DNA of 64,000 bases from positions 1 to 64,000 of the forward strand of contig DUNG01000005.1 in the NCBI GenBank assembly GCA_012839475.1. The letters are read 5' to 3'. The translations under genes were made by a program, and so were the position numbers. The notes under the pieces were generated by a model. It ran no database searches and had not been told where the DNA came from. It saw only the letters and a list, made by a program, of their open reading frames with translations. This document shows positions 435-24,494 of this stretch, one piece after another; position 1 is the stretch's first letter, and each line of letters begins with the position of its first letter. The DNA comes from Petrimonas sp. (GTDB lineage: Bacteria; Bacteroidota; Bacteroidia; Bacteroidales; Dysgonomonadaceae).

Positions 435-698
435 TTATAAGAAATTGTCTATGCTACTTCGCTCTTTACCAATTATTTGCTTATCTAACCACTTTTCGCT
501 TCTACTCGAGAAAATAATCAGGCTATCGTTTTCTAAATCCATGATTTTCTCTGCTCTCAAAGATAATTCTTTTAGCTTAACCTCGGAAATTTCGCCTTCG
601 AAAACCGAGTTTTGTATCCAATTCAAGTATTTTCTGCATAGTTTGAGCATCTTGCCAACTCGTTTTTCGCCACAATCATAAACCAAAATCACGTACAT
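435..698 (-). CDS. cas2: CRISPR-associated endoribonuclease/integrase subunit Cas2
   Basis: An 87-residue protein, the normal size for Cas2. It opens with a hydrophobic beta strand ending in the conserved aspartate (VILVYD, Asp8). A second strand region carries the VFEGEI segment (about residues 32-37), as in the ferredoxin-fold Cas2 family. Cas2 forms the central dimer of the Cas1-Cas2 spacer integrase; the DNase/RNase activity reported for some members is not needed for integration. It starts four bases after cas1 ends and is the last gene before the leader, so it is surely co-transcribed with cas4 and cas1. Confidence 0.95.
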   Translation of the reverse strand: MYVILVYDCGEKRVGKMLKLCRKYLNWIQNSVFEGEISEVKLKELSLRAEKIMDLENDSLIIFSSRSEKWLDKQIIGKERSSIDNFL

Positions 699-702
699 AA
701 CT

Positions 703-1719
703 TTACCACCACATTTTAAAAGGTTTATACTCTTCCATTCCCAACAAATGCTTGCTAAGTTTGTAACACTCCAATTTTATCAAATGCTTATAACTTACTT
801 TTCTTTTTAATGAGCGATGTTGAATGGTCTCATTTAATCGGTCGTCGAAAGCCTTTACAAAAATCTTTTTCCCGGAAGGATTAAGTAAGCAGCGGTTTAA
901 TTTGCTTTCGAAGTGGCGTTCTTGCAACTCTCTTCTATTCAGTAATTTAAATATAACTCTATCTACTAAGATCGGCTTGAAAATCTCGGAAATATCCAAC
1001 GAAAGCGAGTAACGTCTTTCGCCCGGCGAGTGTAAATAACTGATCGTGGGATTGAGTTGCGTTTGATGTATGGCACGCAAACATTGGCTGTAGCACATCA
1101 TGTTCCCAAACGAAATAAGAGCGTTAACCTCGTTTTGCGGTGGCTGCTTGGTACGAGTACCCATTTCAAAATCGTTGATTATCAAATCAAAGCCTTCATA
1201 GTATATTTGCCTGATATTGCCTTCCAATCCCATCAACTCTTCCACGGATGTAGCAAATGGCAATTGCAATTCGTACTGCTCGATTTTTTCTATTAAAGCA
1301 TCCAAATCTTTACCGCGTGTGTTGTAATAACGTAGATTTTTAAGCATATTAAATGCGCCACCTTCAACAAATTTTCGGGCAAGCTCTATTCGCTTCTTTT
1401 TGTTTTGATGGGCTGATGTTTGTGCCAAAAGCATTTTGCCCGAAAGCAATCCGTCGCGAGGCATAAATGAACCGGTATAATTTTCGTAGTAATCGAAGAA
1501 GTGGACGGCTATTCCGTTTTGCCCCAAAAAGTTGTAAAGCGAACTGTTGGCATTGAGTGCGCCGAAAGCGTAAAACTCGGCAATATCTTCCACGGGTAAG
1601 TATCGTGGTTGTCCCTCCTGCTGATTTCCATTGCCATCTTCTTCCATTGGCGTGAAACGCAGCGTGTTGTCTTTGCGTTGAAGCGTACCGGGATTAAATA
1701 AATAATAGGTCTTTTTCAT
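703..1719 (-). CDS. cas1: CRISPR-associated endonuclease Cas1
   Basis: The spacer integrase of the locus, 338 residues from the ATG at 1719 (MKKTYYLF). That start makes an ATGA overlap with the cas4 stop and removes an unlikely basic 16-residue extension. The three metal-binding residues of the family are recognisable: Glu166 in LEGN, His230 in SYLHSPGE and Asp242 in SLDISEIF. The [16 protein letters not shown] stretch is highly typical of type I-B style Cas1. It works with Cas2 to insert prespacers at the leader-proximal repeat, and with Cas4 for PAM trimming. Confidence 0.97.
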
Positions 1720-2228
1720 TCTTCTTCTTTCACGTAACAAAATTCGTAATAACTGCAACTTTTGCAAATTCTTGCATTGATAACAGGTGGACAGGTCTCC
1801 GATTCTACAATTTGCTCAATTTCTCTCTCCATCTTCTGGATTTTTGCACTGTCGTTATCGGAAAGTGTAACCCGGGCTGTATGTCGCAAAGTGGGGTATT
1901 CTAAAATTCCTGAAACACCCTCTATACCTGTTTGTTCCAACACGTATATGTAGTATTTCACTTGCCACTCGTGCGCTCTTTCTATTTTATTGGAACGTTT
2001 TATCTCGTGAATAACCTTGTTGCGAGCATCAAAAAAGTCGATTTTTATACCGCCCATTTCTAACTCTTCGTATCGTTCCGATCGTTGTGGATATGTCGTT
2101 TCTTGAATTAGCTTACCGTCATAAACCAAATCGGAAGTGTGTTCCATGTTTAGCCCATTGGCGAAAAGCCAAAGTTTCCGCTTACAGACTTGATAGTAGT
2201 TGAAGTGAGTCCCGGTGATGTTCATCAT
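1716..2228 (-). CDS. cas4: CRISPR-associated exonuclease Cas4
   Basis: A 170-residue RecB-family nuclease. It has the four iron-sulfur cysteines of Cas4 (Cys15 in VCKRKLW; Cys155, Cys158 and Cys164 in [10 protein letters not shown]). The nuclease core is also visible: KIDFFD, the E-x-K of HEIKRS, and QVKYYIYVL corresponding to the QxxxY motif. Cas4 processes prespacers and selects the PAM before integration by Cas1-Cas2. Two adjacent ATG codons (2228, 2225) can start it. It overlaps cas1 by four bases and is separated from cas3 by the AbiE insertion, so the adaptation genes form their own cluster. Confidence 0.95.
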
Positions 2229-2237
2229 CTCTTTAAG

Positions 2238-2354
2238 TTAATGAAATAAAGGTTCTAAAATCTGTTTCATTGCAGGACGGTTTTTGTAAGTGTTAAGCAG
2301 CTCTTCTTTCAATGATTTTTCAGTAAAAAGATGCTCATAGAGCGGGGTGTTGTT
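2238..2354 (-). pseudogene. 38-codon open relic of an unknown gene upstream of cas4
   Basis: Between abiEii and cas4 the minus strand carries an open frame of 38 codons ending in TAA (2238-2240), with a stop immediately upstream (2355-2357). The translation has a natural, charged protein composition (PLYEHLFTEKSLKEELL, then NRPAMKQILEPLFH). It begins without a start codon and looks like the C-terminal end of a longer protein, cut off on its upstream side. It may be what was left of the gene that originally preceded cas4 when the AbiE segment arrived. I do not recognise the family. Confidence 0.35.
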
Positions 2355-2383
2355 TTAGAATAAATTTGGACATGGAGTTTTGT

Positions 2384-3247
2384 TTATTTCCACTTAATTG
2401 ATTTACAAACATTTTTAAGTTCCATTACAACCTTTTCAAATGATGGTAACTGATATTCAGCCAAATGTCCTGATAAACTGTTGTTCCACGCTTTCTGAAC
2501 TTTAGCTAACTCGGAATGCATAAAAAAATCGTCCGGCGAATTAAATTTTATTGCCTTAAAGGTACATTTCTTATGAAAGGTTTCAGCAATTACTTTACCA
2601 GTGCTTTCATCCAAATTTTTAGTTAGAAACCATAAGTCGTAATAATCGCGTGGTGCAGGATAGCTTCTTTGCAACAAGGCTCGAAATTTTTCTGCAATGA
2701 TTTCAATTAACGAATAGCATGGAATATTAACTTCCGGTATTAAGGCCCTGTCGGAGTAATTGTGAAATATCTTTCTGATAACAGGTTTATTAACAACAGT
2801 TTCATAGAAAATTATTTCTATCTTTATTTCAGTTAACCAACGATTGCTTGGCGGTGGTGGATGATTCTTCTTGTGATTTGCACCCCAAAATCGGATGTGT
2901 GTTTCATAACCTACAACCTTGTCATTCCTATGTTTTGGTATAACATTGATTTTAGAAAACAGTATTCCGATATTCTGCGTAATTGAATTGCAAACATTCT
3001 GCAAAATTTTGTTTGTAATCGGATAATCCGGATTGACCAATGTAAAGTCCAAATCTTCCGAGAATCGGTAATCATCAAAATAACATTTTTTCAAACAGGT
3101 ACCTCCTTTAAATACCAAATTGTCTTTTGCCCAATTTTGATTAAACAATTCTCCCAAGAAATGACCTAAAACCCAGTCTTTATCAATGGTAGAAGGTGGG
3201 ACGCCAGTCGATTCGGCTTTTTTAAATATTTCGCTTTGCAATATCAT
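2384..3247 (-). CDS. abiEii: AbiEii/AbiGii-family nucleotidyltransferase toxin
   Basis: Toxin of a type IV toxin-antitoxin system, 287 residues. It shows the nucleotidyltransferase signature near residue 45: FKGGTCLKK, then RFSEDLDFTL, which matches the family's KGGT...DLD catalytic core. Further downstream, SLIEIIAEKFRALLQR and PAPRDYYDLWFL are typical of AbiEii. The ATG at 3247 overlaps the antitoxin stop (TGATG), the tight coupling seen in abiE pairs; a TTG one codon earlier is possible. AbiE systems block phage growth and stabilise DNA, with the nucleotidyltransferase arresting growth. Here the pair is lodged inside a cas operon. Confidence 0.93.
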   Translation of the reverse strand: MILQSEIFKKAESTGVPPSTIDKDWVLGHFLGELFNQNWAKDNLVFKGGTCLKKCYFDDYRFSEDLDFTLVNPDYPITNKILQNVCNSITQNIGILFSKINVIPKHRNDKVVGYETHIRFWGANHKKNHPPPPSNRWLTEIKIEIIFYETVVNKPVIRKIFHNYSDRALIPEVNIPCYSLIEIIAEKFRALLQRSYPAPRDYYDLWFLTKNLDESTGKVIAETFHKKCTFKAIKFNSPDDFFMHSELAKVQKAWNNSLSGHLAEYQLPSFEKVVMELKNVCKSIKWK

Positions 3248-4026
3248 CAATACATGTTTTTTATCATGCCCAGCAAATCATTGCGGCTAATATTAAGTCG
3301 AATGCGCCATTTGCTTACAAATTCACCTTTGTTGAGTCCCATCGGGTCAATTAGGGTATATCTTTGATTAAGTATTTTCAACACCTGTTCCCTGAAACGT
3401 GAAAATCCTTTCATCTCGAATAGCTCCGACAAAAAAGCCAATCGCTTCAGAACCGATAAATTTCCCATTTTCATGCCATATTCAAATAAACGGGTACTGC
3501 TTATCTTTGCATGATAAAACGCTCTTATAAGTTCTTCATAACCTCCTGAGTATTGTGGCAAATCAAAGCAATCAAGCAATGTTTTTTCTGTATCGGTAAT
3601 ACGAAACTCTCCATTACCGTAACCAAGCGTAGTAATTCCACAAATCTTCTTCGGCTTTACTTTGACAAACTTGTAACGGACCCCGAAAACTTCTTTATCT
3701 CTCTTGCTGTGAATTGATTGTAAATATACAATATTGGGAATTTGCTCGGTAAGTCCGTGAAGGTTCAGGGCTGACCAATAAGCAACAGCACTCTCTTTGA
3801 GCATTGCTGTTCCTATTACATACGGATCACGGAAGTTACGAACGACATACAAACCCTTCTCTATCATTGATAATTGTCCATCTCTCACCAAAATTCTTAA
3901 AGAGTTCTTAAGCTCTGGATACGTTTTCCCTGTCAACTGCATTATCCTATCTAAACTCGCAATTGATAGTTCGTTATCAACCAGCTTGTTAATTATATAG
4001 GAGCCAGTATGTATATTAGTATTCAT
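3247..4026 (-). CDS. abiEi: AbiEi-family antitoxin/transcriptional repressor
   Basis: A 259-residue antitoxin. The N-terminal part is a winged-helix region (about residues 14-65, with LDRIMQLTG and LRILVRDGQLSMIEKGLYVV). It is followed by AVAYWSALNLHGLTEQIP and RITDTEKTLLDCFDLPQYSGG, which are hallmarks of AbiEi. Family members neutralise AbiEii without stable binding and repress their own promoter through inverted repeats. A matching inverted repeat sits at 4045-4065, 19 bases upstream of the start. The gene is complete and coupled to abiEii, so the module is likely active. Confidence 0.92.
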   Translation of the reverse strand: MNTNIHTGSYIINKLVDNELSIASLDRIMQLTGKTYPELKNSLRILVRDGQLSMIEKGLYVVRNFRDPYVIGTAMLKESAVAYWSALNLHGLTEQIPNIVYLQSIHSKRDKEVFGVRYKFVKVKPKKICGITTLGYGNGEFRITDTEKTLLDCFDLPQYSGGYEELIRAFYHAKISSTRLFEYGMKMGNLSVLKRLAFLSELFEMKGFSRFREQVLKILNQRYTLIDPMGLNKGEFVSKWRIRLNISRNDLLGMIKNMY

Positions 4027-4044
4027 TTTCTAAAAAACACAATT

Positions 4045-4074
4045 ACCTTTAGTGTGATTAAAGGTGCAAATATA
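4045..4074 (-). promoter_or_regulatory. abiE promoter -7 box and candidate AbiEi operator
   Basis: TATATTTG on the minus strand (4067-4074) matches the Bacteroidota -7 box. Just downstream, overlapping the expected start point, are ACCTTTA (4045-4051) and TAAAGGT (4059-4065), a perfect 7-bp inverted repeat with a 7-base centre. AbiEi proteins are known to repress abiE through inverted repeats in the promoter, so this is the natural candidate operator. No clear -33 TTTG is visible. Confidence 0.6.
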
Positions 4075-4175
4075 ATACCTTTTGTTTAATGAAAAGTTAT
4101 AAAGTCTGTTTAATAGGTACGTTTTCAAAATTAATTTATACTATACGTTGCTTCAATTTTTTTAATTGTGCTGTC

Positions 4176-4529
4176 TTAATACTGCTCCCACATATCTCCA
4201 AACTCGTAAGTAAACCCACAAGCTGTTTCGGGCAATGTTATCATCAGATCGGCAAGCAGATCAGGCGAAGGCTTTAAGGCTCTAAAGTCTGAAATCGCTT
4301 TTTTACAAACCGAAAATCGTATTTTAGGATTCAATGACTTGGTATCGGGATAAAACATCTGAATTATAATTTTGTGATACTTCTCAAGAATTTCCTTTTC
4401 GTTGGGATTGAGATAATACTCCATAAACACCCTTGCCGGTTTCACGTTGTCGTATATCTGCAATACCAAATCAATTGTCTGTTCCTTGGTAAGTGTTTGG
4501 AAATGTTGTTTTAGTGTGGATTTGGGCAT
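4176..4529 (-). CDS. DUF6155-like protein, probably truncated at the C-terminus
   Basis: A 117-residue protein that starts MPKSTLKQHF and contains LNPKIRFSVCKKAISDFRALKP and FTYEFGDMWEQY. This resembles the DUF6155 family of Bacteroidota as I recall it, whose members run longer. After the TAA stop the same frame continues for 14 plausible codons (DSTIKKIEATYSIN) before the next stop. The gene therefore appears cut by a nonsense change or by the adjoining insertion. It begins 41 bases after cas3 ends. A function is not known to me; it could be a passenger that arrived with AbiE or an ancient accessory. Confidence 0.6.
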   Translation of the reverse strand: MPKSTLKQHFQTLTKEQTIDLVLQIYDNVKPARVFMEYYLNPNEKEILEKYHKIIIQMFYPDTKSLNPKIRFSVCKKAISDFRALKPSPDLLADLMITLPETACGFTYEFGDMWEQY

Positions 4530-4570
4530 TGAGCTACATTATGATTAAAATCGATAAATTATTTCTATGT

Positions 4571-6826
4571 TTACAAAAACACACTTTCCTCATTAAATGT
4601 GACGCCTTTTATATTGTTGTAAAAACCTTTACGAATAACATACAGGGTTTCTGTTTCATCTTTGATCTTTATGTTTTCCACATCAATCATATGATTTTTT
4701 CTCCCTTTTTCTATTAAGTATAGAGGTAATTCTAGTGAGTTTTTTATTTTCCAACTTTGAAATTCCAAGTAATTACAGAAGTAGCTATGATCTGGTTTCT
4801 TAACAAAAACCGTGTCTTGTGGTGCAATATTTCTACTTTTCCAATGATTGGTTGTTGAGTCATCAGTAGCCACCACTTGCATCGGATTAATAAGCCAATT
4901 GTATTTAAAATGTTCTTTCAGCATTTGCGAGTTTGTCATTGCATTGTTAGAAAATTCACTTTCATCAGAGTAAACTTGGTTAAGTAATCCTACTAATTCC
5001 CCTGCACTGTATTTGGTTTTCGTTAATAGTTCTTTGGTTTTGACTATGGCTTTACAAGGTACCCATGTTTTTTCTTTTAAATTATATTCTCCATAAGGTG
5101 CCGGATACAATGAACCGTTTTTTTGGGGAATTAACAAATGCAATTCTCCTATCTTTGATTTGTCAAATCTGCATAATCTCCCAGCACGCTGAGTCAATCT
5201 ATCAATTGGACAAAGCTCGGAAATCATTAAATCTGCACTTATATTAATACTCATTTCTCCTATTTGAGTAAGAATGGTAATTCCTTGTGCACAATTGTTT
5301 TCCCATGCGCTTTTTCCCAATGAATCAATAAGCTCTTGCTCTTTGTCTTTCTTATGTGGCTCAGTAAATCTACTATGATACAGCATAGGTTTTATGCCTC
5401 GTTTTTCAAACCATTGATATAACTTTATAGCTTTATCTACGGTATTAATGTAAATTATTGCTGTTCCTTTATCAATACAGAGATTTAACAAGTCTTCTAT
5501 TTCAGAAAACTCTGAATACTTTTTAATTGTTTTTATTTCAAATCTGTCTCTGTGATTATCAGTTGTATCTTCAATTATTTTATCAATTTTATATCCAATG
5601 CCACGATAAGTAGGTAAGATTGACTCTGGTAATGAGGCACTCATTAAAAGTATTGGTACATTCCAATATTTTAAAATCTCAAGAAGTACCAGAATATTAG
5701 CTTGTGTAAAGTCATCATAAAAATCTGCTTCATCAATTACAAGGCAAGAATTTGCTAAATTAAACAAAATCAGGTGATGATCTTCTCTTGTTAAAGTCAA
5801 TGCTATCAATAAATGATCTATTGTACATACTGTTATTGGCGTTTGAAGTAAACGGGCAAATTCATGAAATTTTTCAGCTGTTCTTTTATTTATTATACCA
5901 GCATCAACCTGTTCTTGAAACTTAGTAAACCATGCGCTAGAATGATACAAACCGGTATCAGATAAGCTTTCAGCCACATTGATAGCTAGGGCATTAGATG
6001 TAAAGCGAGTGGGCATGGCAATTATTAAGCGATCTGCCCTTTTAGATTCAATTTGCTTTTGTGCCCACAATAAAGACGCATCTGTTTTCCCTGAACCTGT
6101 TGGTGCACGAACTAATAATAAATCATCGTTCCTCCAATGTTTTTCAATCAGTTTCTGAGCACCTCTTTTTTCACTATGTGGAAATTTATAGTTGAAATTA
6201 GACAATTCTGGAACATAACTTCCCTCTTCTTTTGCGCTTGCCCTGTGATCTGCTAATTGAAGTAGTCCCCTAATCCCTGAAAATTCATAGTGAGTTTTCG
6301 CTGTTAGTTCCAATGTCCTTTCCTTGTAACTTTCAATTTTGAATTTTTTCCAAAAACACTTAAACCCTTCGCTTATCCATCTATTTTCAAAATTTTCACC
6401 TAACTTTCCATGATGTGCAGCAATGGCAACTTGTATAGGTGACGGCAGAGTTTTATTTTTTAAAAGAGAGTAAAACTCGTGGCGGACAGCAGCTTTTCGA
6501 ATATGCTTGCCAGCATCTTCTTCTGTTGCGTACTCTGTGAAGCTCCTTCCGTTGTTTAATCGTTGCCAGTTTAGAAATTCTTCATAGTCTTTTTGACATG
6601 CAGATTGCCATTTTTTTGATAGTTCTTTACCTGCATCGTGAAACTGACAAGCTAGTTCTACTCTTTTTTTTAAGCTTTTCCCGGTAAGTTTGTTGTATTT
6701 GTTTGTTGTTGTTGGAATATTTTTTAGCAATAACAGACCTTCTGATATAACATTTTGACTATGTGTATCGAGTGTAATACCAGAAGGTTTTGCCAAAATA
6801 GGGTGTTTGAATTTACTCACCTCCAA
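4571..6826 (-). CDS. cas3: CRISPR-associated helicase/nuclease Cas3 (HD + DExH)
   Basis: The 751-residue effector nuclease-helicase that degrades target DNA after Cascade binding. The N-terminal HD nuclease domain has its metal ligands at His22, His63-Asp64 (QFHDAGKE), a histidine near 116 (VRHEFYSLL) and a His-His pair near 136 (AAHHGKLG). The superfamily 2 helicase follows, with RAPTGSGKT (motif I, about residue 240), LVIDEADFYDDF (motif II), LMSASLP (motif III) and LTQRAGRLCR (motif VI). Both domains look complete, so interference is plausible. The start overlaps the end of cas7 by 14 bases. Confidence 0.96.
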   Translation of the reverse strand: MEVSKFKHPILAKPSGITLDTHSQNVISEGLLLLKNIPTTTNKYNKLTGKSLKKRVELACQFHDAGKELSKKWQSACQKDYEEFLNWQRLNNGRSFTEYATEEDAGKHIRKAAVRHEFYSLLKNKTLPSPIQVAIAAHHGKLGENFENRWISEGFKCFWKKFKIESYKERTLELTAKTHYEFSGIRGLLQLADHRASAKEEGSYVPELSNFNYKFPHSEKRGAQKLIEKHWRNDDLLLVRAPTGSGKTDASLLWAQKQIESKRADRLIIAMPTRFTSNALAINVAESLSDTGLYHSSAWFTKFQEQVDAGIINKRTAEKFHEFARLLQTPITVCTIDHLLIALTLTREDHHLILFNLANSCLVIDEADFYDDFTQANILVLLEILKYWNVPILLMSASLPESILPTYRGIGYKIDKIIEDTTDNHRDRFEIKTIKKYSEFSEIEDLLNLCIDKGTAIIYINTVDKAIKLYQWFEKRGIKPMLYHSRFTEPHKKDKEQELIDSLGKSAWENNCAQGITILTQIGEMSINISADLMISELCPIDRLTQRAGRLCRFDKSKIGELHLLIPQKNGSLYPAPYGEYNLKEKTWVPCKAIVKTKELLTKTKYSAGELVGLLNQVYSDESEFSNNAMTNSQMLKEHFKYNWLINPMQVVATDDSTTNHWKSRNIAPQDTVFVKKPDHSYFCNYLEFQSWKIKNSLELPLYLIEKGRKNHMIDVENIKIKDETETLYVIRKGFYNNIKGVTFNEESVFL

Positions 6827-7736
6827 ATGCTTTTTGGAACGTTACAATCTCTCCATTATCTGACGGGTCGAATAAGGTGTTTTCACTATTTTGTAGAAAT
6901 TCTATTGCTTTATTGTATGCTTTATACACACTATTTTCTGTTGTATCATCTCCGAAAAAACAAACAGCTCCTCTATTATTGAGTTCATCTAGAATGTTTT
7001 TTCTTTCCTGATCTCCGGCAACGAAATATCTACTTGCTTTACGGCTTAAAATTGTATCGAAAATAATTAATACTTTTTTTGGTTCTCCGCTAACCGCATT
7101 ACGAGCTTGACTTGCATAATCATTCATTGATTTTGTGGCTTCAAGATAAAGTCTTACTCTTCGCTTTCGTTCATCGTCATCAGCGTGTTTAAAATATTGT
7201 GTTTCAATGTTGAAACTATTCTCATATTTAAATCCCTTGGAGATGCTTAATGCACTTATATCAAGAAAAAAATTCATATGCATTATGTCTTTTTGACTAA
7301 ATTCTTTAGTTGCAAGTGCTTGCTCTTTTGCATCATCAGATTCATTCAAACGAATACGAACCAATAAGTCGCGCCCAATTTCACTTTCATCGATGGCAAC
7401 AGCAGGTGTTACTGATAAAGGAGAAGTTCTTCTTCCGGAATAATCTCCTTTTGAAGGATGCATAAATCCTCCCATATCTGCACGTAAGTCTTTTTCTATT
7501 TGATTGCTAATGCCATCTCCATTTGAAACAAATGTGTCTCCCTTGTTTGGATCAGAAAAATTCAGACGATCCATTGCCGAAAAAAGCACATGGCGCTGCA
7601 TCTGACCTGAAATATATACACGTCCATCGGGTCTTCTTTTAATTGAAGACGCATTGCCTAATAATTTTTCACCACCATTGGCTATGTGATTTTCGAACGG
7701 AGCCAAAGCCGATACTAAAATTCCTTTAATTACCAT
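6813..7736 (-). CDS. cas7: Cascade backbone subunit Cas7 (DevR/Csp1 type)
   Basis: A 307-residue RAMP-fold protein that would polymerise along the crRNA spacer. It starts MVIKGILVSALAPFENH and has SSIKRRPDGRVYISGQMQRHVLF, DLRADMGGFM and RRTSPLSVTPAVA, all characteristic of the DevR/Cst2/Csp1 branch of Cas7. The DLRADMGGF block is what I associate with the PGING variant first described in Porphyromonas. It lies 22 bases after cas8 and overlaps cas3, in one effector operon. The assignment to Cas7 is firm; the exact variant name is less so. Confidence 0.93.
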   Translation of the reverse strand: MVIKGILVSALAPFENHIANGGEKLLGNASSIKRRPDGRVYISGQMQRHVLFSAMDRLNFSDPNKGDTFVSNGDGISNQIEKDLRADMGGFMHPSKGDYSGRRTSPLSVTPAVAIDESEIGRDLLVRIRLNESDDAKEQALATKEFSQKDIMHMNFFLDISALSISKGFKYENSFNIETQYFKHADDDERKRRVRLYLEATKSMNDYASQARNAVSGEPKKVLIIFDTILSRKASRYFVAGDQERKNILDELNNRGAVCFFGDDTTENSVYKAYNKAIEFLQNSENTLFDPSDNGEIVTFQKAFGGE

Positions 7737-7758
7737 GTTATTCTGTTTTTAAAATTGT

Positions 7759-8181
7759 TTATTCGTTACTATAGTCTTCTTCATCTTTATTGTAATTTTC
7801 AATGTCATTGTTTTTTTGATTAGTAGCTTCTGATTTACTCCTTAAACGTGAAAATGCAATAAGTAAATTTTTAGCACTATCAAGAGGTAGTTCTCCACTT
7901 GCTGTTTGTTCCATAAACAACGTTGCTCCTTCAGGTGCGTCCATACCTGTTAACCTTCCGGCTCTAGTTATTGCTTGTGCTAACAATGCATCGCCAGTCT
8001 TAGCTGAGAAAATGGAACTTTCAAGTTCAACTAAAACCTTTGCTTTTGTTTTGTTAATTTCTTCCCAGTATGTAGGACTTTCTTCTGATACTTCATTTTT
8101 GGCTGCAATATAAGCTACATTATTAAGCCATTTGCCTAAAATCTTGGCAGATTGTACGATTTTTAAATTTATTTTTTCCAT
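7759..8181 (-). CDS. possible internally initiated Cas11 small subunit
   Basis: In-frame ATG at 8181 (Met373 of Cas8, MEKINLKIV) would produce a 140-residue protein made of the Cas8 C-terminal part. Types I-B, I-C and I-D are known to make the Cascade small subunit Cas11 this way, and 140 residues is a usual length. The segment is rich in helix-forming sequence (SAKILGKWLNNVAYIAAK, KTKAKVLVELESSIF). The bases before the ATG are AT-rich (TATTTTACCAAA), as at many Bacteroidota starts, with no Shine-Dalgarno. This is inference only. Confidence 0.35.
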   Translation of the reverse strand: MEKINLKIVQSAKILGKWLNNVAYIAAKNEVSEESPTYWEEINKTKAKVLVELESSIFSAKTGDALLAQAITRAGRLTGMDAPEGATLFMEQTASGELPLDSAKNLLIAFSRLRSKSEATNQKNNDIENYNKDEEDYSNE

Positions 8182-9297
8182 TTTGGTAAAATATGTGGTA
8201 AATAATATTTCAATGTTATACGGGTATTCAGCTCTGAAAGATAAGAAATCTCTAAATGCTGCTTTGTTAAAAAGTTGCAAAAAACGACTCGTAAATAAGT
8301 CAAATTTTTGATATTCACTATTACTGCTTTTCCTTCTGTCTTGATTATATAATTTAGAATAATATAAACTATCAATGATTGCCCTTAGCTTACTTTCTTT
8401 GGCTAAATCTATAACATGGTGGTTGTATGTGAAAACATCTGCACTACCATACTTTATAGTGTAAATCTCTGTTCCTTTCAAACTTTCCAATACTCTTTTG
8501 GCTTGTTCCGAATACTCTGCAATTTTCGCAAATTCTCCAATTGCTCCTAAAAGAACAATTGCCCCTAAAGCACTACTACGAGGGGGATTGGGGAAATTGC
8601 CTCTAAAAATTAATGGGCGTTTAGGTGAATAAATGATTTTTTTATTATTTTCCTTTCCTGATTCTTCTTTAATTACATTCCCAATCATTAGGTCATCTGC
8701 AGTTTGAGATATTAGCATTCTCTTGAAAAACGAAATAAAATCTTTCATTTTATCAATTTCTAAGTTTGGGATTAAACAGACATTAAACATTTCCGGCTGT
8801 CCTATTTTATCTATTCGATATTGCAGACATGGTTTGTATTTGGTCAATGTGGTTATAGCACTTAAAGAAAGATCCAATAGACTTGATTTTGGCTTACCTC
8901 TTCCTATTTTTCCACCAATTGAGAAGTTTAAATATTCACCTGCTGTTGGGGCAACTGCCATTGTTACGTCTTTTGTGCAATCTAGTGGTTTTGATTTTAA
9001 ATCATTGATCAAAGATATCGCAGCTTTCCATAGATTCTTTGCATATTTGTCAGATGATATAACATTTGGCGATAAAAAAACACCTTTAGACGGATTTCCT
9101 TTTTCTTCTCTATAAAAATCATATTTAACTTTTGTTTCACCATAAAATAATGATACGGGTTTTACCCTAAAGGATTGAAGCCCTTTTTCGATTTCGTTTA
9201 TTAAATGATCGTTTGAAATGTCTTTACAATCATTCAAATCGTTTTCTAGTAAAATTAAAGCCTGAGCATATTTTAAAACCGGATGTTTTGTGTTCAT
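7759..9297 (-). CDS. cas8: Cascade large subunit Cas8 (Csp2-like)
   Basis: The 512-residue protein sits where the large subunit is expected, between cas5 and cas7. It has no recognisable enzymatic motif, as is normal for Cas8, whose job is PAM recognition and Cas3 recruitment. Features include VAPTAGEYLNFSIGGKIGRG (about residues 113-132), NFPNPPRSSALGAIVLLGA (about 245-263) and an acidic Asn/Asp/Glu-rich tail. The position and the neighbouring Cas5/Cas7 types suggest Csp2/Cas8c-like. The start overlaps the end of cas5 by four bases (ATGA). An alpha-helical C-terminal third may also be produced separately as Cas11. Confidence 0.88.
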   Translation of the reverse strand: MNTKHPVLKYAQALILLENDLNDCKDISNDHLINEIEKGLQSFRVKPVSLFYGETKVKYDFYREEKGNPSKGVFLSPNVISSDKYAKNLWKAAISLINDLKSKPLDCTKDVTMAVAPTAGEYLNFSIGGKIGRGKPKSSLLDLSLSAITTLTKYKPCLQYRIDKIGQPEMFNVCLIPNLEIDKMKDFISFFKRMLISQTADDLMIGNVIKEESGKENNKKIIYSPKRPLIFRGNFPNPPRSSALGAIVLLGAIGEFAKIAEYSEQAKRVLESLKGTEIYTIKYGSADVFTYNHHVIDLAKESKLRAIIDSLYYSKLYNQDRRKSSNSEYQKFDLFTSRFLQLFNKAAFRDFLSFRAEYPYNIEILFTTYFTKMEKINLKIVQSAKILGKWLNNVAYIAAKNEVSEESPTYWEEINKTKAKVLVELESSIFSAKTGDALLAQAITRAGRLTGMDAPEGATLFMEQTASGELPLDSAKNLLIAFSRLRSKSEATNQKNNDIENYNKDEEDYSNE

Positions 9298-10025
9298 ACG
9301 TCGTCGTTTATTGTTATATTAATCCACCCTTCACTGTTCCCCAAGTATGCTATATTATTTGTTTGTATTGCTTCCAGAAGTAATTCGTATAAGTCTCCAT
9401 CTAATAGTATTTTAGCTTTATAAAAACCATTCATGCTGATATATTCACGTTTTGTTGGAGTTGAATAATAAAGTGGAAATTTCGACAAATTCTCCTTAAA
9501 AAATCGTTCTAATTCTTTATCATCTACCTGTTTGGTATCCTTTTTATTTCTGCCTAATGACCACTTGTCTCTTATAATATCATAGCTTATATTGAAGGTT
9601 CCTTTAGGATGGACAATGGCGTCTGCTCTGCGGTAAGCTTTGCTCCAAAGGTCATCATAAAATTCTGCTTTTGTAAAAATGGGAACTATGTCTATTATTT
9701 CAAAGTAATCCATTAACAGAGGCAAATAGCTTGAGCCTTTAGAATAATCTATAAATTCCAATTGAGAAGTTTCTTTCGCTTGCTTTTTTCTAAATTGAAC
9801 AATATCTTTTACGATATTTTTTCTATCAGATAAATCTATGTGCCACCCAATAAGATTTTCTATAAGTCCGCATAGCATTTTTTTTGTAGGTGTTTTTACT
9901 GTTTTATAATATGAACCAGGTAATTCGCACACCATTGATAACGGGGCTAATGGTTCTATCTGCATGATGACTGTTTTATCAAGAGATGGTAACGTTTTGA
10001 GTATTGAAATATCTATTTTTAACAT
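9294..10025 (-). CDS. cas5: Cascade subunit Cas5 (PGING-like)
   Basis: A 243-residue RAMP protein that would cap the crRNA 5' handle. The segment IEPLAPLSMVCELPGSYYKT, then TPTKKMLCGLIENLIGWH, matches the Cas5 N-terminal region as known from the PGING-type systems of Porphyromonas. An alternative start is Met21 (MQIEPLAPL, position 9965), which would be closer to the family norm. The first ATG is kept here because it follows the AT-rich spacer directly. The C-terminus (NSEGWINITINDDV) overlaps cas8 by ATGA. A TATATTTG box at 10070-10077 on the minus strand may give this operon its own promoter. Confidence 0.88.
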   Translation of the reverse strand: MLKIDISILKTLPSLDKTVIMQIEPLAPLSMVCELPGSYYKTVKTPTKKMLCGLIENLIGWHIDLSDRKNIVKDIVQFRKKQAKETSQLEFIDYSKGSSYLPLLMDYFEIIDIVPIFTKAEFYDDLWSKAYRRADAIVHPKGTFNISYDIIRDKWSLGRNKKDTKQVDDKELERFFKENLSKFPLYYSTPTKREYISMNGFYKAKILLDGDLYELLLEAIQTNNIAYLGNSEGWINITINDDV

Positions 10026-10118
10026 AATAGATCCTTACTAATTATTTAATTATCAAAGTCTGTTTTTCACAAATATAAACAACAAATTTTAATACCGCTT
10101 TGTTATTTGCTTTAATTT

Positions 10119-10175
10119 TTAAATGTGTTTAGGTCCCACTTCCTTAACTATCCCAAAAACGATGCTGTTTTTGTA
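10119..10175 (-). pseudogene. relic of a second, diverged cas6 3' end
   Basis: Immediately downstream of the cas6 stop the minus strand encodes KNSIVFGIVKEVGPKHI followed by TAA. The end of the intact Cas6 reads KNSIGFGMVREVNG. The two share the glycine-rich loop pattern but differ at many synonymous positions (for example AAC/AAT, AGC/AGT, ATC/ATT). This is therefore a diverged allele and not a recent duplication. It looks like the tail of a former cas6 left behind when the present cas6 was swapped in. Confidence 0.7.
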
Positions 10176-10178
10176 CAC

Positions 10179-10961
10179 TCATCCATTCACTTCCCTCACC
10201 ATTCCAAACCCAATACTATTTTTACTACCGATGCCCGTTTCATAGGCAATTTTTTGCAACTCTACGGGGGCGGTTAGGCGAATGTTGCACATAAATCCTC
10301 TAACTTTACTCGCTTGAGGAGTACCCGATTTTATATGAATCAAGTTCGATTTGGGCTCATTAAGTATCTCGACTGCAAACGGGAATTCGTCTGACGAAAA
10401 TTCGTTCCCCGTTAATGCTAAGTATTTGTCTAAAAGATTTTGTTTTATCAATCGGGTGGCTTCGGAATGATTCGGGGCAATATACTTGTCGTAGCCTTCG
10501 AGCTGTCTTAGTGCTAGACATATAGGTGAAAGGGTCTCGTAACTCATTTTTTCCGAGAATATGGGTGGGGGCATCAGCTCCACGCTTTGCACTTGAAAGC
10601 GCACGTTCGACTTTCTTGTTCCCACCTCGAATTGTTGATTGTTAAAAATCCCGACAATAAACTGCTCGGTTGACTTTTCTGGTAGAAACGAGATATACCA
10701 GACCACGTTGTCGGATAGTATTTCAAGCTCTGCCGTTTGTTTTAAAATACGGTATCTCTCCACTTCGAACCTTGAGTAACTAAACAATTTGAAGCTTTTG
10801 CCACTTGCCAGTTTATAGCCATTCTCGTGTAGCCATATGGTGTATTCCTCATTGGCTTGTGCCAAAATGCGGTAGATGGCGGCACTCTGCTCGTACTGGT
10901 AGTTGAGCGGTAGTTTTTTGCCAAAAGAGTTTGTTAAAGAAAGAGTTAGTTTGAATCTCAT
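10179..10961 (-). CDS. cas6: CRISPR pre-crRNA endoribonuclease Cas6
   Basis: A 260-residue RAMP-fold RNase that cuts the pre-crRNA within each repeat to leave the ATTGAAAC handle. It opens MRFKLTLSL, keeps the two-ferredoxin pattern, and ends in the glycine-rich loop GSKNSIGFGMV (about residues 245-255), the clearest Cas6 signature. The ATG at 10961 is preferred over an upstream TTG at 10982. It is the first gene of the cas cluster, separated from cas5 by 153 bases that contain a relic of another cas6. The three palindromes at 11134-11218 lie upstream. Confidence 0.93.
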   Translation of the reverse strand: MRFKLTLSLTNSFGKKLPLNYQYEQSAAIYRILAQANEEYTIWLHENGYKLASGKSFKLFSYSRFEVERYRILKQTAELEILSDNVVWYISFLPEKSTEQFIVGIFNNQQFEVGTRKSNVRFQVQSVELMPPPIFSEKMSYETLSPICLALRQLEGYDKYIAPNHSEATRLIKQNLLDKYLALTGNEFSSDEFPFAVEILNEPKSNLIHIKSGTPQASKVRGFMCNIRLTAPVELQKIAYETGIGSKNSIGFGMVREVNG

Positions 10962-11133
10962 AGTCAGTGCACTTATTGGCAATTATTTGCTTGTTGTCCC
11001 AGGTCGTTAAAGAAATCTCTCAGGATAATTATCGCCTTTTATTACTACCGCAAGTTACTGAGAATTTGCGAACAAAAACGAGGTAGATGAGAATAATTCA
11101 CATCTAATACCTTTATGACCTAAACATGTAAAT

Positions 11134-20312: not shown

Positions 20313-23300
20313 ATGAAAAGAGGTATTCTCCTATTATTCTCATTTGTTTCTATCTTCTCGGCACTCGTCGCCGCCCCAATAGAACGAGCTGCGGCATTAC
20401 AATATGCCAAGCAGTTTTTAAATCAGACTTCGGTTTCACAGTTTACCCGGAGTGCTGCTTTAGAAGTAGAGTCGGAACCGGTTTATATCGGCAAAGACGC
20501 GTTGACCGGGACGTCTCATTTTTACGTGTATAACCTCTCAAATGACGGCGGATTCGTTATTGTTGCTGCCGATACGCGTGTTAGAATAATTCTTGGTTAT
20601 TCATTCAACGGGGGTTTTGATGAAAAAAAGATTCCCGTAAACATGCGGGAGTGGCTAAACGAGTACTCGTCGCAGATAACCTATGCCATTAAACAATTGC
20701 CCGAGACCACTACGCCCCCCGTCGTTACTCGCGGTAATTCCATGAATAGTGTTGTTGTTGGTCCGCTTTTGGGTGACATCAAGTATAACCAAGGTGCTCC
20801 TTATAATGACATGTGCCCTATGGATGGTCCTCATAGGTCGGTTACGGGCTGCGTGGCAACGGCCATGGTGCAGGTGATGCGTTATTATCAACATCCGTCG
20901 GCAGGTAAAGGCACCAAGACTTATGACGCAAAAAAGTTAAACCGAGAACTTACCGTAAATTTTAGCAATACCACGTACGATTGGGGCAATATGCTACCCA
21001 GCTATGATTCGACGGCTACCGATGTGCAAAAAACCGCGGTGGCAACCCTGATGTATCATGCCGGGGTAGCGGCAGAAATGGATTACACGGCAACAGGGAG
21101 TGGAGCCTATATGAGTGACGCTGCATTGGGGTTGTATCAGCATTTTGACTATGACTTAGGTATTGGCTTAGCTTTGCGGCAGTATTACTCGGAGGAGGAG
21201 TGGTTGCAGCTGATTAAAACAGAATTGAATGAAGCCCGCCCCGTGATAATGAGCGGACGAAATGAGGAAGTAGGGCATGCTTTTGTCTGTGATGGGTATG
21301 ATACCGATAATCTCCTGCATATCAATTGGGGATGGGGAGGATATCAGGACGGCTATTTTCAAGTATCGGCATTGAAGCCAGGTGGTTCAGGCACAGGAGG
21401 AGGTGGAGATGGTGGCTACAACTTAAACCAGTCTGTTTGTTACGGTATTCAAATACCTGTCGCGGGTTCTGTGGCGAATAGGGTACTTGGAATTACTGAA
21501 ATAACGGTAGATAAGAGCTCCATAAGCGGAGATCAAAAGGCACGGTTTAAGCTGTCTAATGTGACTGGATTGGATATATTCGGATTTAAAGGAGAGCTGG
21601 CACTTGCCCTCTATGATGACGTTGGAAACTTTGTGAAGATGATCAAGAGCTCGGCTATAAGCGACCTTGCCTATGAACATTACTATTCTTCTCTCTCTTT
21701 CGATATTGGCGTATCCGATATACGTCCCAACGAGTCGGCAACAGGAATATATTACATCACGCCTGTTTGTCGGGTACAAGGTGAGGGTACGTGGAAACCG
21801 GTGATGGTGGAAAACGGGAAAGTGTCTGAAATCCCGGCAGTCATAACCAATTTAGGTGTCAGTTTCACTATCATTGAAATGAAGTTTGAACTTTCAGAGG
21901 CGGCTCCGGCCGTTGTGAAAAACGCTCCTTACACCATAATTGAAGATAGAGAGCTAAATATTGAACTACGAATTTCAAATACCGGCAATATAGATTACCG
22001 GGCACAGATAGGTGTGAAAGCGGTTTCTCTTGCCGATGAAACGAAGGTGTTCGAACTGGCGCACGCGAAAGCCATTTTGCCTGTAGGGGAAACGACGGTA
22101 GTGAGTTTAGTAGGTGTCATTAATTTCCCGCGAGGGCAATATAAGCTCGAAGCGTACTATGACCCCGCGAATGGGGAAGAGGATTTATCATTCCCATCCG
22201 CCAAAATTGGGGGTGAAACAGCGGCTACTGAATTTACTGTACTACCGCCCCCTGAACCTTATCAACTGTCGCTCGCCAAAGCTATCGAAATGCCCGAGGA
22301 GATAGAGCAGGGTACTCCTTTTACATTTAAAGCAACCATTACCAATTCGGGCGGTTATTTTGACGGTAGTTTATTGTTAAGATTCTTAAAAGCGCGAAAT
22401 GATGGCTCGGGTGATTATGATCACGTGTATGATCCTAACCCTTATCAGGTGGTTATTTTGACTGAGACAAAGGAGGTGGCGATAAGATATACCCTGGATT
22501 TAGCTCCCAACTCCGGTTATGCCGCCCAACTGTATTACGTGGATGATGCTACAGGAACTAACACCTCTTTTGGTGACAACCCAGAGAATTGGCGTTACTT
22601 TACCGTTAAGGAAAGGACTCCTGTAACCCTTTACTCAATTGATGTTTCAGCTAACCCTAGAACAGGTGGAACGGTTACTGGCGGCGGTGGTTTCGCTTAC
22701 GGTACTCCTCATACGGTAAGAGCCAAAGCGAGATCAGGTTACATTTTTATCAGTTGGACGGAAAACGATTCAGTGGTTTCCACAGAACCAAACTATAGTT
22801 TTACCGTTGAAAAAGAGAGATCATTGGTTGCTAACTTTGCTGCTGATAAATACGCGGTAAGCTTCACGAAGCCCTCCAACGGCACGCTTAAACTGTTTAA
22901 AGAGACGACCGAAATTCAATCGGGCACATTGGTAGAGTACGGGGCCAAGCTGCGTGTAGAAGCCATCCCCGATACCGGGTACGGGTTGGTGTCGTTGCAG
23001 GCGAACGGGCAAGATATCATCGATAACACGGTAACGGTAATGGAGACGATGGAGATCGTGGCCGTTTTTGCGAAACAGGAGCTTACGGTAAACTTCACGA
23101 AACCTGCCAACGGTTCGCTCAAGGTGTTCAAGGAGACGACCGAAATTCAATCGGGTTCACAAGTAGAGTACGGGACCAAACTAAGGGTGGAAGCCATCCC
23201 CGATACCGGTTACGAGTTGGTGTCGCTGCAGGCGAACGGGCAAGATATCATCGAAAACACGGTAACGGTAATGGAGACGATGGAGATCGTGGCCGTTTTC

Positions 23301-24494
23301 GCGAAACAGCAGTTCCCGGTAAGCTTCACGAAACCTGCCAACGGTTCGCTCAAGGTGTTCAAGGAGACGACCGAAATTCAATCGGACACACCAGTAGAGT
23401 ACGGGACCAAATTAAGGGTGGAAGCCATCCCCGATACCGGTTACGAGTTGGTGTCGCTGCAGGCGAACGGGCAAGATATCATCGAAAACAGGGTAACGGT
23501 AACGGGTGCGACGGAGATCGTGGCCGTTTTCGCGAAACAGCAGTTCCCGGTCAGTTTCACGAAGCCCGCCAACGGCACGCTCAAGGTGTTCAAGGGGATG
23601 ACCGAACTTCAATCGGGCACACCAGTAGAGTACGAGACCAAACTGCGTGTAGAAGCCATCCCCGATATGGGCTATAAACTGGTGTCGCTACAGGCGAACG
23701 GGCAAGCTATAACCAACGACACGGTAACGGTAACGGGTGTGACGGAGATAAAAGCCCTGTTCGAGCGGTGGGTAAGCACGGACAATTATCGAATAAAAGT
23801 GACCAACGCGGCCTGCCCGGGTAGCAATGATGGCAAAATAGAGATCAGTTTTGCCAAACAACTCGATTACACCGTGACCGTGAAAAACGACAGCGGCTTT
23901 GAAAAAACGGAAAGGGTAACGGCAACCACCTACAGCTTGACGGACCTTGCCGCCGGGAACTATTCGGTATGCTTCACGATAGAGGGAGCAACCAACTACA
24001 AGCAGTGTTTCGAGGTGGTCATTTCCCAACCGAAAGACTTAAGCGTGTTTAAATCGGCTGTTGCCGATAACCACGCGACGTACAGGGTAAGCGGTGGTAC
24101 GCGCTACACGGTGACCCACAACGGGCGAAGCATGGAGACAACTGATAATGTGATACAAGTCCCGCTACGCAGGGGGAGGAACCTTATCCGTATTACTGCG
24201 GAAAACGAATGCCAAGGCGTGTTTGAAGAGGAAGTGTACCATACTGATAGCCATAAACTGATTCTTTTCCCCAATCCCACGACGGGACAGTTCTCGCTCA
24301 TCCTCCCCGACGGTGAGGATGAGGTCACGGTGGAAATTATCTCGATACTGGGGCATTCGGTCTTGAAAGAGAAGCGAAGGGTTTCACTTAACGGCTTGAT
24401 CAGTATGAATATATCGGCGTTACCCAACGGGATCTACCTGGTGAGGGTAAACGGCAAAACCGTTAAACAGGTGACGAAAGTAATTAAGAAATAA
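20313..24494 (+). CDS. secreted C10-family cysteine protease (streptopain/PrtT-like) with T9SS tail
   Basis: A 1393-residue multidomain protein. A signal peptide (about residues 1-20) and a Spi-type propeptide (QYAKQFLNQ...HFYVYNL..GFVIVAADTRV) precede the papain-fold domain. Catalytic Cys180 is in TGCVATAMVQVMRYYQHP; His322 is in VGHAFVCDGYD, followed by LHINWGWGGYQDGYF. Ig/CARDB-like domains come next, then four 77-residue repeats (about 849-1156) and a SprB-like segment. The last roughly 80 residues (LFPNPTTGQFSL...LPNGIYLVRV) are a type A Por secretion tail, so the type IX system should export it; sprA is also in this window. Relatives degrade host proteins. Confidence 0.93.
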   Translation: MKRGILLLFSFVSIFSALVAAPIERAAALQYAKQFLNQTSVSQFTRSAALEVESEPVYIGKDALTGTSHFYVYNLSNDGGFVIVAADTRVRIILGYSFNGGFDEKKIPVNMREWLNEYSSQITYAIKQLPETTTPPVVTRGNSMNSVVVGPLLGDIKYNQGAPYNDMCPMDGPHRSVTGCVATAMVQVMRYYQHPSAGKGTKTYDAKKLNRELTVNFSNTTYDWGNMLPSYDSTATDVQKTAVATLMYHAGVAAEMDYTATGSGAYMSDAALGLYQHFDYDLGIGLALRQYYSEEEWLQLIKTELNEARPVIMSGRNEEVGHAFVCDGYDTDNLLHINWGWGGYQDGYFQVSALKPGGSGTGGGGDGGYNLNQSVCYGIQIPVAGSVANRVLGITEITVDKSSISGDQKARFKLSNVTGLDIFGFKGELALALYDDVGNFVKMIKSSAISDLAYEHYYSSLSFDIGVSDIRPNESATGIYYITPVCRVQGEGTWKPVMVENGKVSEIPAVITNLGVSFTIIEMKFELSEAAPAVVKNAPYTIIEDRELNIELRISNTGNIDYRAQIGVKAVSLADETKVFELAHAKAILPVGETTVVSLVGVINFPRGQYKLEAYYDPANGEEDLSFPSAKIGGETAATEFTVLPPPEPYQLSLAKAIEMPEEIEQGTPFTFKATITNSGGYFDGSLLLRFLKARNDGSGDYDHVYDPNPYQVVILTETKEVAIRYTLDLAPNSGYAAQLYYVDDATGTNTSFGDNPENWRYFTVKERTPVTLYSIDVSANPRTGGTVTGGGGFAYGTPHTVRAKARSGYIFISWTENDSVVSTEPNYSFTVEKERSLVANFAADKYAVSFTKPSNGTLKLFKETTEIQSGTLVEYGAKLRVEAIPDTGYGLVSLQANGQDIIDNTVTVMETMEIVAVFAKQELTVNFTKPANGSLKVFKETTEIQSGSQVEYGTKLRVEAIPDTGYELVSLQANGQDIIENTVTVMETMEIVAVFAKQQFPVSFTKPANGSLKVFKETTEIQSDTPVEYGTKLRVEAIPDTGYELVSLQANGQDIIENRVTVTGATEIVAVFAKQQFPVSFTKPANGTLKVFKGMTELQSGTPVEYETKLRVEAIPDMGYKLVSLQANGQAITNDTVTVTGVTEIKALFERWVSTDNYRIKVTNAACPGSNDGKIEISFAKQLDYTVTVKNDSGFEKTERVTATTYSLTDLAAGNYSVCFTIEGATNYKQCFEVVISQPKDLSVFKSAVADNHATYRVSGGTRYTVTHNGRSMETTDNVIQVPLRRGRNLIRITAENECQGVFEEEVYHTDSHKLILFPNPTTGQFSLILPDGEDEVTVEIISILGHSVLKEKRRVSLNGLISMNISALPNGIYLVRVNGKTVKQVTKVIKK
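22857..23780 (+). repeat. four tandem 231-bp coding repeats in the C10 protease gene
   Basis: Units begin at about 22857, 23088, 23319 and 23550, each encoding a 77-residue domain that starts with FTKPANGS/T LKVFK and ends AVFAKQ (a bacterial-repeat type beta domain). The second and third copies are nearly identical in DNA, including the stretch after AAGGTGTTCAAGGAGACGAC, while the outer copies are more diverged. Such tracts change copy number by recombination. Confidence 0.9.

Follow-up and report, generated by a model that had tools for sequence, protein, structure and literature searches.

The AbiE type IV toxin–antitoxin (TA) systems known from Streptococcus agalactiae and Serratia are, in the accessible parts of their descriptions, bicistronic abiEi–abiEii operons whose AbiEii protein carries motif regions I–IV (PMC3985639, PMC7725324). 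The pair analyzed here, abiEi–abiEii of a Petrimonas sp., lies in positions 1 to 64,000 of contig DUNG01000005.1 (assembly GCA_012839475.1), a stretch of 64,000 nucleotides that we call the window and to which position numbers refer; L-numbers denote loci, that is, fetched neighborhoods, from other genomes. It shares these features and, in some loci of its lineage only, inverted half-sites at the promoter; unlike the known AbiE systems, the lineage is embedded in CRISPR-associated (cas) operons and in one of its seats abuts cas5. As far as PMC12737573 and PMC8730458 are accessible, CreTA and other TA pairs linked to clustered regularly interspaced short palindromic repeats (CRISPR) likewise are nested in CRISPR–Cas loci, but CreTA consists of RNAs and is under the control of Cascade, whereas here two proteins are encoded and no repeat-like promoter element was found. 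General associations of TA modules with cas genes, of which the present case is one, are treated in the available text of PMC10910872, which names DarT, DarG, and ParD in a legend and has 0 occurrences of AbiE in its main text; AbiE appears in PMC12737573 in the reference list only and is absent from the main text of PMC8730458, as far as these could be accessed. In their available portions, neither these three papers nor PMC7725324, PMC3506569, PMC3985639, PMC6452270, PMC5704556, and PMC10367356 describe AbiE inside cas operons, and no such description was found in the searchable literature, where an earlier listing is possible in a subscription screen for CRISPR-linked genes cited by PMC6452270.

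Since close relatives of the window pair sit inside the cas operons of many other Bacteroidales, our data suggest that AbiE and CRISPR defenses are passed on jointly and perhaps also switched on at the same time. The best explanation, which as a whole we rate at a probability of about 0.5, is that the pair belongs to an AbiE lineage resident in Bacteroidales cas operons of type I-B, that its own repressor-controlled promoter would also feed downstream cas genes, and that it would move with the adaptation cassette. Its linkage, orientation, tight junctions, and toxin motifs can be read directly from the loci.

The AbiE pair and its linkage to cas operons

In the window, abiEii (2384–3250) and abiEi (3247–4026), both on the minus strand, lie inside a cas operon between cas3 and cas4; gene order and profile matches confirm this position, which an earlier note on this DNA had proposed. 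The toxin, a nucleotidyltransferase, is recognized by Pfam (PF08843, 1.1e-38) and by PADLOC (7.3e-85), and motifs I–IV, as defined in the accessible part of PMC3985639, are all present in the alignment (GGT, YRFSEDLDF, K188/R190-QR, and PRDYYD). The gene of the antitoxin/repressor AbiEi, recognized by PADLOC (1.6e-79), lies directly upstream, and the abiEii ATG overlaps its stop codon (TGATG). AbiEi had no Pfam match at E<=0.01 and matched structure 6y8q only weakly in phmmer (E=0.006); a structure prediction with a predicted local distance difference test (pLDDT) score of 40 was not used. Both genes appear intact, as the note had stated, and the pair is most likely an ordinary AbiE type IV TA system, for which toxicity relieved by the antitoxin, as well as phage resistance, would be expected. 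We rejected carriage of the subfamily as phage or plasmid cargo, because no close relative was found among the records listed, where identities were only 23.4–33.5%, the upper value belonging to the best plasmid (among 15 of 44 records listed) and the lower to the one phage record; 11 viral contigs match at 27–33% identity.

A search with the window AbiEii in 393 Bacteroidales genomes (E<=1e-20) gave 35 places in 33 genomes, and all 35 neighborhoods were read with I-B references for up to ~10 kb on each side or to the contig end. The AbiEii tree comprises 34 of these places, L065 being left out for a toxin that lies in two frames, and splits 18 rows, the window among them, from 16 rows with a support of 100/100. 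For the linkage count, L065 was put inside this subfamily and L066 outside it, as L066 sits on a long branch and is placed on the other side by the AbiEi tree. A cas operon or its remnant was found at 13 of 18 places in the subfamily of the window and at 1 of 17 outside it (Fisher p=6.4e-5). The number in the subfamily becomes 14 if the scarred locus L061 is counted, and if L067 is dropped, the counts are 12/17 and 1/17 (p=1.2e-4). L067 is the weakest of the loci, with nothing more than an AbiEii truncated at the end of the contig, a c12-like open reading frame (ORF), and a 44-residue cas4 piece. The 13 cas-linked subfamily loci have 13 different family labels, and in each embedded locus AbiE lies on the strand of the flanking cas genes. 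On the AbiEii tree, the cas label requires 5 changes against a shuffled mean of 10.6, and on the AbiEi tree (42 rows) 6 against 12.5, with 0 of 500 shuffles as low in either case. The prospect, raised in the note, that relatives might carry AbiE at unrelated sites has thus given way to counts that favor a conserved cas link. The sole cas-linked locus outside the subfamily, L084 (4589–13397), has a type II Cas9-Cas1-Cas2 set with an array and a distant AbiE pair behind it.

Unlinked within the subfamily are L051, L052, L057, L058, and L061. Beside AbiE in the first four, and in L149 and L150 from outside the order, the I-B references revealed no cas remnants at E<=1e-4, with L051, L052, and L058 ending at or near AbiE, so that a cas link on the missing side is possible. 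In L061 (3223–5229), an intact AbiE is flanked by the tail of cas7 (its last ~42 residues) and the first codons of cas5; therefore, cas genes have been deleted around it. A PADLOC scan of 124 ORFs of at least 150 residues within 7 kb of 20 of the 21 unlinked places (L061 left out) showed no Cas among the best 25 of 172 families, where matches weaker than 1.6e-56 are possible; the same best 25 include Argonaute, methyltransferases, and other defense families (near AbiE in L068, L069, L085–L097, and others). Beyond the order, 326 genomes of the phylum were searched, 21 of them with a match, at 22 places including that of the window. Near the 19 of 21 other places that were read (G755:C88 and G676 left out), the I-B references detected no cas genes. 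Two of the 19 are L149 and L150; four of the remaining 17 were put on the AbiEi tree, and all of these fall outside the subfamily. With all out-of-order places counted, the linkage is 13/20 versus 1/34 (p=8e-7).

Seats of AbiE and the adaptation cassette

The subfamily was found with at least three kinds of I-B effector, PGING in the window and L013, TNEAP-like in L050, L059, and L060, and another I-B kind in L054. For a Csh-like I-B effector kind, here named cas8h, a search of 386 genomes of the order yielded 18 loci, 16 of them informative, as L119 and L126 end before the seat. AbiE lies between cas7 and cas5 in six of the 16 (L053, L056, L062–L065) and between cas3 and cas4 in two (L055, L121); five (L120, L122–L125) have a direct cas7–cas5 junction without AbiE, with gaps of −4 to +55 nucleotides, and in three an IS200-like Y1 transposase occupies the cas7/cas5 seat (L116:5807-6274, L117:3296-3757, L118:8555-9016; Pfam on L116 only). 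Where AbiE occupies this seat, 87–220 nucleotides precede abiEi, and the gap from abiEii to cas5 is −4 to +7 nucleotides. Twelve PGING loci were fetched, two of which (L012 and L014) end before cas4, and no AbiE was found in the fetched stretches of the seven distant Csp2 loci L077–L083.

Direct cas3–cas4 junctions occur in 11 hand-chosen loci, with gaps of −95 to +11 nucleotides and with the effector kind of the window in L079 and L083 only, and other relatives carry different genes at this junction. Both observations support the view of the earlier note that AbiE was inserted into an ancestral operon. The note had also seen scars of this insertion at both edges of the pair, and here a distinction is needed: the truncated DUF6155 gene (4176–4529, minus strand; PF19652, 7.5e-13) and the relic between cas4 and abiEii (2238–2373, minus strand) are confirmed, but DUF6155 predates the insertion. 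A complete DUF6155 gene follows cas3 in L016 (the same-genus Proteiniphilum sp. X52, same locus as L008), in L017 (Tannerella forsythia), and in L018, and the fetched stretches of all three have no AbiE; L014 is cut off by the end of its contig. Because DUF6155 follows cas3 without AbiE in L016 and L017, it is an older occupant of the cas3–cas4 junction and separate from the AbiE insertion. The window gene encodes 117 residues versus 171 in L018 and 184 in L016 and L017, and about ten codons past its TAA are still family-like, as judged by eye. Beside DUF6155, the cas3–cas4 gap of T. forsythia holds a Fic/DOC gene (L017:15349-16353), and that of X52 holds what we take to be a RhuM-like tail (L016:15434-15604).

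The relic begins with a DUF6155-like start, MSKFILKQH, and continues with 34 open codons in another frame, for which there was no accepted match; a TnpV identity (E=0.067) was not accepted. In L055, AbiE is flanked by an 82-residue cas4 stub and a longer, 154-residue cas4 ORF, which are near-identical in their shared N-terminal part and 66% identical over 64 residues overall. L013, from a metagenome-assembled genome of the Prevotellaceae, has a 26-codon cas4 piece ahead of abiEi, and its contig ends inside abiEi. A broken copy of a neighboring gene therefore flanks AbiE at the cas3/cas4 seat in three loci (window, L055, and L013), and from this we infer homologous recombination with an incoming abiE-bearing cassette, of which such copies are the expected leftover. 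L050, L054, L059, and L060 have no clear stub of that type beside AbiE.

On a cas4+cas1 tree of 27 loci, the effector kinds require 10 changes versus 10.7 when shuffled, and as they scatter near-randomly, adaptation cassettes swap effectors freely. The nearest cas4+cas1 row of the window is L121 (75% identity, support 80/66), and its nearest AbiEi is that of L121 as well (64–65% identity, support 97/90); the effector of L121 is cas8h, and its cas3 is only 24% identical to that of the window. Since the nearest AbiEi and the nearest cas4–cas1 thus share L121 while the effector differs, AbiE may move together with the adaptation cassette; such co-travel is supported, on trees of moderate support, for the window–L121 pair and not generally. 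The ratio of nonsynonymous to synonymous substitution rates (dN/dS) is 0.06–0.09 among L062, L063, and L061, where dS is finite (3/8 comparisons; in the other five, all those with the window among them, synonymous sites are saturated). Such values agree with purifying selection on the two AbiE genes in L061–L063, but they do not place the selection in L061 after its cas loss.

The predicted abiE promoter and the competing explanations

The motif TAnnTTTG is the −7 element of Bacteroidota promoters. It is present within 110 nucleotides upstream of 10 of the 14 abiEi genes, versus 1.7 expected from shuffles, whereas the starts of 57 other cas genes yielded it only twice. Nine of the 14 abiEi upstream regions, that of the scarred L061 included, have it at −40 to −52; for L061 and L055, an abiEi start later than that of the longest ORF was used. 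The predicted abiE promoter/operator of the window (4040–4090, minus strand) has the −7 element TATATTTG 48 nucleotides before abiEi, with AAAGGTA/ACCTTT half-sites around it. 8-mers of the AAAAGGTA/TACCTTTT type flank the element in L056, L059, and L065 and also, though with a poorer match, in the window, where they occur within the first 12 kb at the abiE promoter only; they are also found upstream of abiEi in L013 and L053, they are absent from the promoters of L055, L062, L063, L064, and L121, and most loci have some of them elsewhere, too. A terminator scan revealed no leftward terminator-like site at 1500–7000 of the window, and the sigma-70 promoter and terminator counts of the window scan were no higher than in shuffles. 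Since the −7 element lies at −40 to −52 in 9/14 loci and, in the cas7/cas5 seat, abiEii abuts cas5, the AbiE promoter probably reads into the downstream cas genes, a prediction drawn from gene anatomy.

In the explanation that we prefer, AbiEi would repress its own promoter and counter the nucleotidyltransferase toxin AbiEii. Promoter activity, read-through, control of cas genes by AbiEi, toxicity, and co-travel are its predicted components: the abiE promoter would feed cas4-cas1-cas2 in the window and cas5-cas3-cas4-cas1-cas2 in the cas7/cas5 seat, and when AbiEi falls or is displaced, e.g., during infection, expression of the toxin and of the cas genes downstream would increase jointly, so that growth arrest would accompany immunity. 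In the lineage of the window, the pair would probably move with the adaptation cassette, which would be swapped between effector modules at the cas3/cas4 boundary. A more ambitious version, which we regard as tentative, is that AbiEi has been recruited as a conditional switch of the cas operon: it would repress an internal promoter from which the toxin and the downstream cas genes are expressed as one unit, and the module would move between effector types with the adaptation cassette. A single signal would then raise a growth-arresting toxin and Cas5-Cas3-Cas4-Cas1-Cas2 (or Cas4-Cas1-Cas2) at once, time being won for spacer capture, and L121, with its AbiEi and no toxin, would be a regulator-only end state.

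Several observations weigh against the explanation of an AbiE pair that feeds the cas genes and travels with them. As to the promoter, a −7 match within 110 nucleotides is missing from L050, L053, L054, and L060, and the single match of L055 is at −109; perfect inverted repeats upstream of abiEi exceed the shuffled expectation (P<=0.055) at no more than 6 of the 14 loci, and the window is not one of these (P=0.64), despite the half-sites around its −7 element. As to read-through, the relic leaves a gap of 155 nucleotides between abiEii and cas4 in the window, and in L059 no cas gene follows AbiE at all. The toxin is in two frames in L065 and lost in L121, where only the first codons of abiEii remain, joined to other sequence. 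As to linkage and co-travel, AbiE is a minority state among the fetched PGING loci, as only L013 of the 10 that do not end before cas4 has it; L149 and L150 group with the subfamily on the AbiEi tree and are not cas-linked; the AbiE label is weakly clustered on the cas4+cas1 tree (6 changes versus 7.8, with 49 of 500 shuffles as low), and the window–L121 grouping on that tree has a support of only 80/66.

Could the pair be a selfish passenger, i.e., an addictive TA pair, complete in itself, that inserts into cas operons and is carried along by their horizontal movement but has no function in immunity? The two separate seats (cas7/cas5 and cas3/cas4), the partial neighbor copies (the cas4 stubs in L055 and L013 and the DUF6155-like start in the window), the survival of AbiE after cas gene deletion in L061, the other cargo at the same junctions (Fic, IS200-like, and SLFN_AlbA_2), and the GC content of the window cas locus (~32–42% versus 50–59% from 12 kb on) all speak for this, and we consider it possible but doubtful, because a passenger alone leaves unexplained why one subfamily is concentrated in cas operons (1/17 outside it) and why the operon is left open by the orientation of the pair and by its junctions. 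The note had suggested that the arrangement could give a second line of defense or make loss of the cas locus costly, and this functional reading is only partly supported. A guard or addiction module that selects against cas operon loss, as proposed for CreTA, would agree with the ability of AbiE to stabilize mobile elements, as stated in the accessible part of PMC3985639, and with its place inside the operon, where deletion of the whole locus takes AbiE, too. However, L061 kept AbiE after cas loss on both sides, L121 lost the toxin yet kept its antitoxin and the cas genes, and an embedded pair can guard only itself and not flanks that are deleted piecemeal, which makes this role unlikely. L061 also speaks, indirectly, against a CreTA-like guard whose toxin would be set free when cas function is lost. 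Finally, a crRNA-like RNA or Cascade might repress abiE, as in CreTA/CreR, and the window abiE promoter indeed loosely resembles a CRISPR repeat; yet the abiE upstream region was unremarkable in 9/9 tested loci with an array (a fraction of 0.10–0.96 of the background, consisting of other 200-nucleotide stretches of the locus, was as high). In terms of repeat similarity, a CRISPR-repeat-like promoter element of the CreA/CreR kind was thus rejected in all nine loci, and we consider such crosstalk very improbable.

The surrounding operon and the meaning of the arrangement

The cas operon of the window (435–10982) is of type I-B (PGING) and reads leftward throughout, in the order cas6, cas5p, cas8/csp2, cas7/csp1, cas3, DUF6155 fragment, abiEi, abiEii, cas4, cas1, cas2, followed by a CRISPR array. 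Its set is complete, with Csp1, Csp2, Cas5p, Cas3, Cas6, and Cas4-1-2 all recognized. On the minus strand are cas6 (10179–10982; TIGR01877, 2.6e-34), cas5p (9294–10025; TIGR03488, 4.3e-83), cas8 (7759–9297; TIGR03487, 2.1e-201), cas7 (6813–7736; TIGR03489, 1.3e-162), cas3 (4571–6826; profile matches), cas4 (1716–2228; PF01930, 1e-53), cas1 (703–1719; PF01867, 1.8e-88; this shorter start was chosen over the listed ORF 703–1767), and cas2 (435–698; PF09827, 1.5e-21). The array, found by repeat search (1–223, no strand; repeat GTTTCAATTCCACTAAGGTACGATTAAAAGC), is cut by the window edge. The step in GC content mentioned above, with the higher values measured from 12 to 18 kb, suggests that the window cas locus was imported. 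Further along the window, at 22855–23733, there is a tandem repeat with 3.8 copies of a 231-bp unit and 88% matches.

Three other families recur in the cas loci. Family c12, a cluster of 14 loci, 13 of them distinct (L007 and L015 are one contig), often lies between cas3 and cas4, whether or not AbiE is present, and gave no Pfam match for the four members tried (examples are L018:15967-16479, L050:6627-7160, L056:2710-3498, and L015:14828-15610). The c14 ORF (L018:15331-15951; 8 loci, 7 distinct) recurs in I-B cas loci, has no Pfam match, and is presumably RAYT-like. A helix-turn-helix (HTH)-WYL regulator, cluster c15, is found at L062:14261-15160 and in 6 other loci, in several of them beside cas6.

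A coupling of adaptive immunity with programmed dormancy has long been proposed, as the accessible text of PMC3506569 states, and a cas operon that contains a defined TA pair of proteins makes this coupling testable. The likely read-through from the AbiE promoter, the second seat between cas7 and cas5, and the possible co-travel with the adaptation cassette had not been covered by the earlier note. The cas3/cas4 boundary stands out as a seam where effector modules and adaptation modules are recombined with new partners, and in the lineage of the window, AbiE stands on the adaptation side of this seam.

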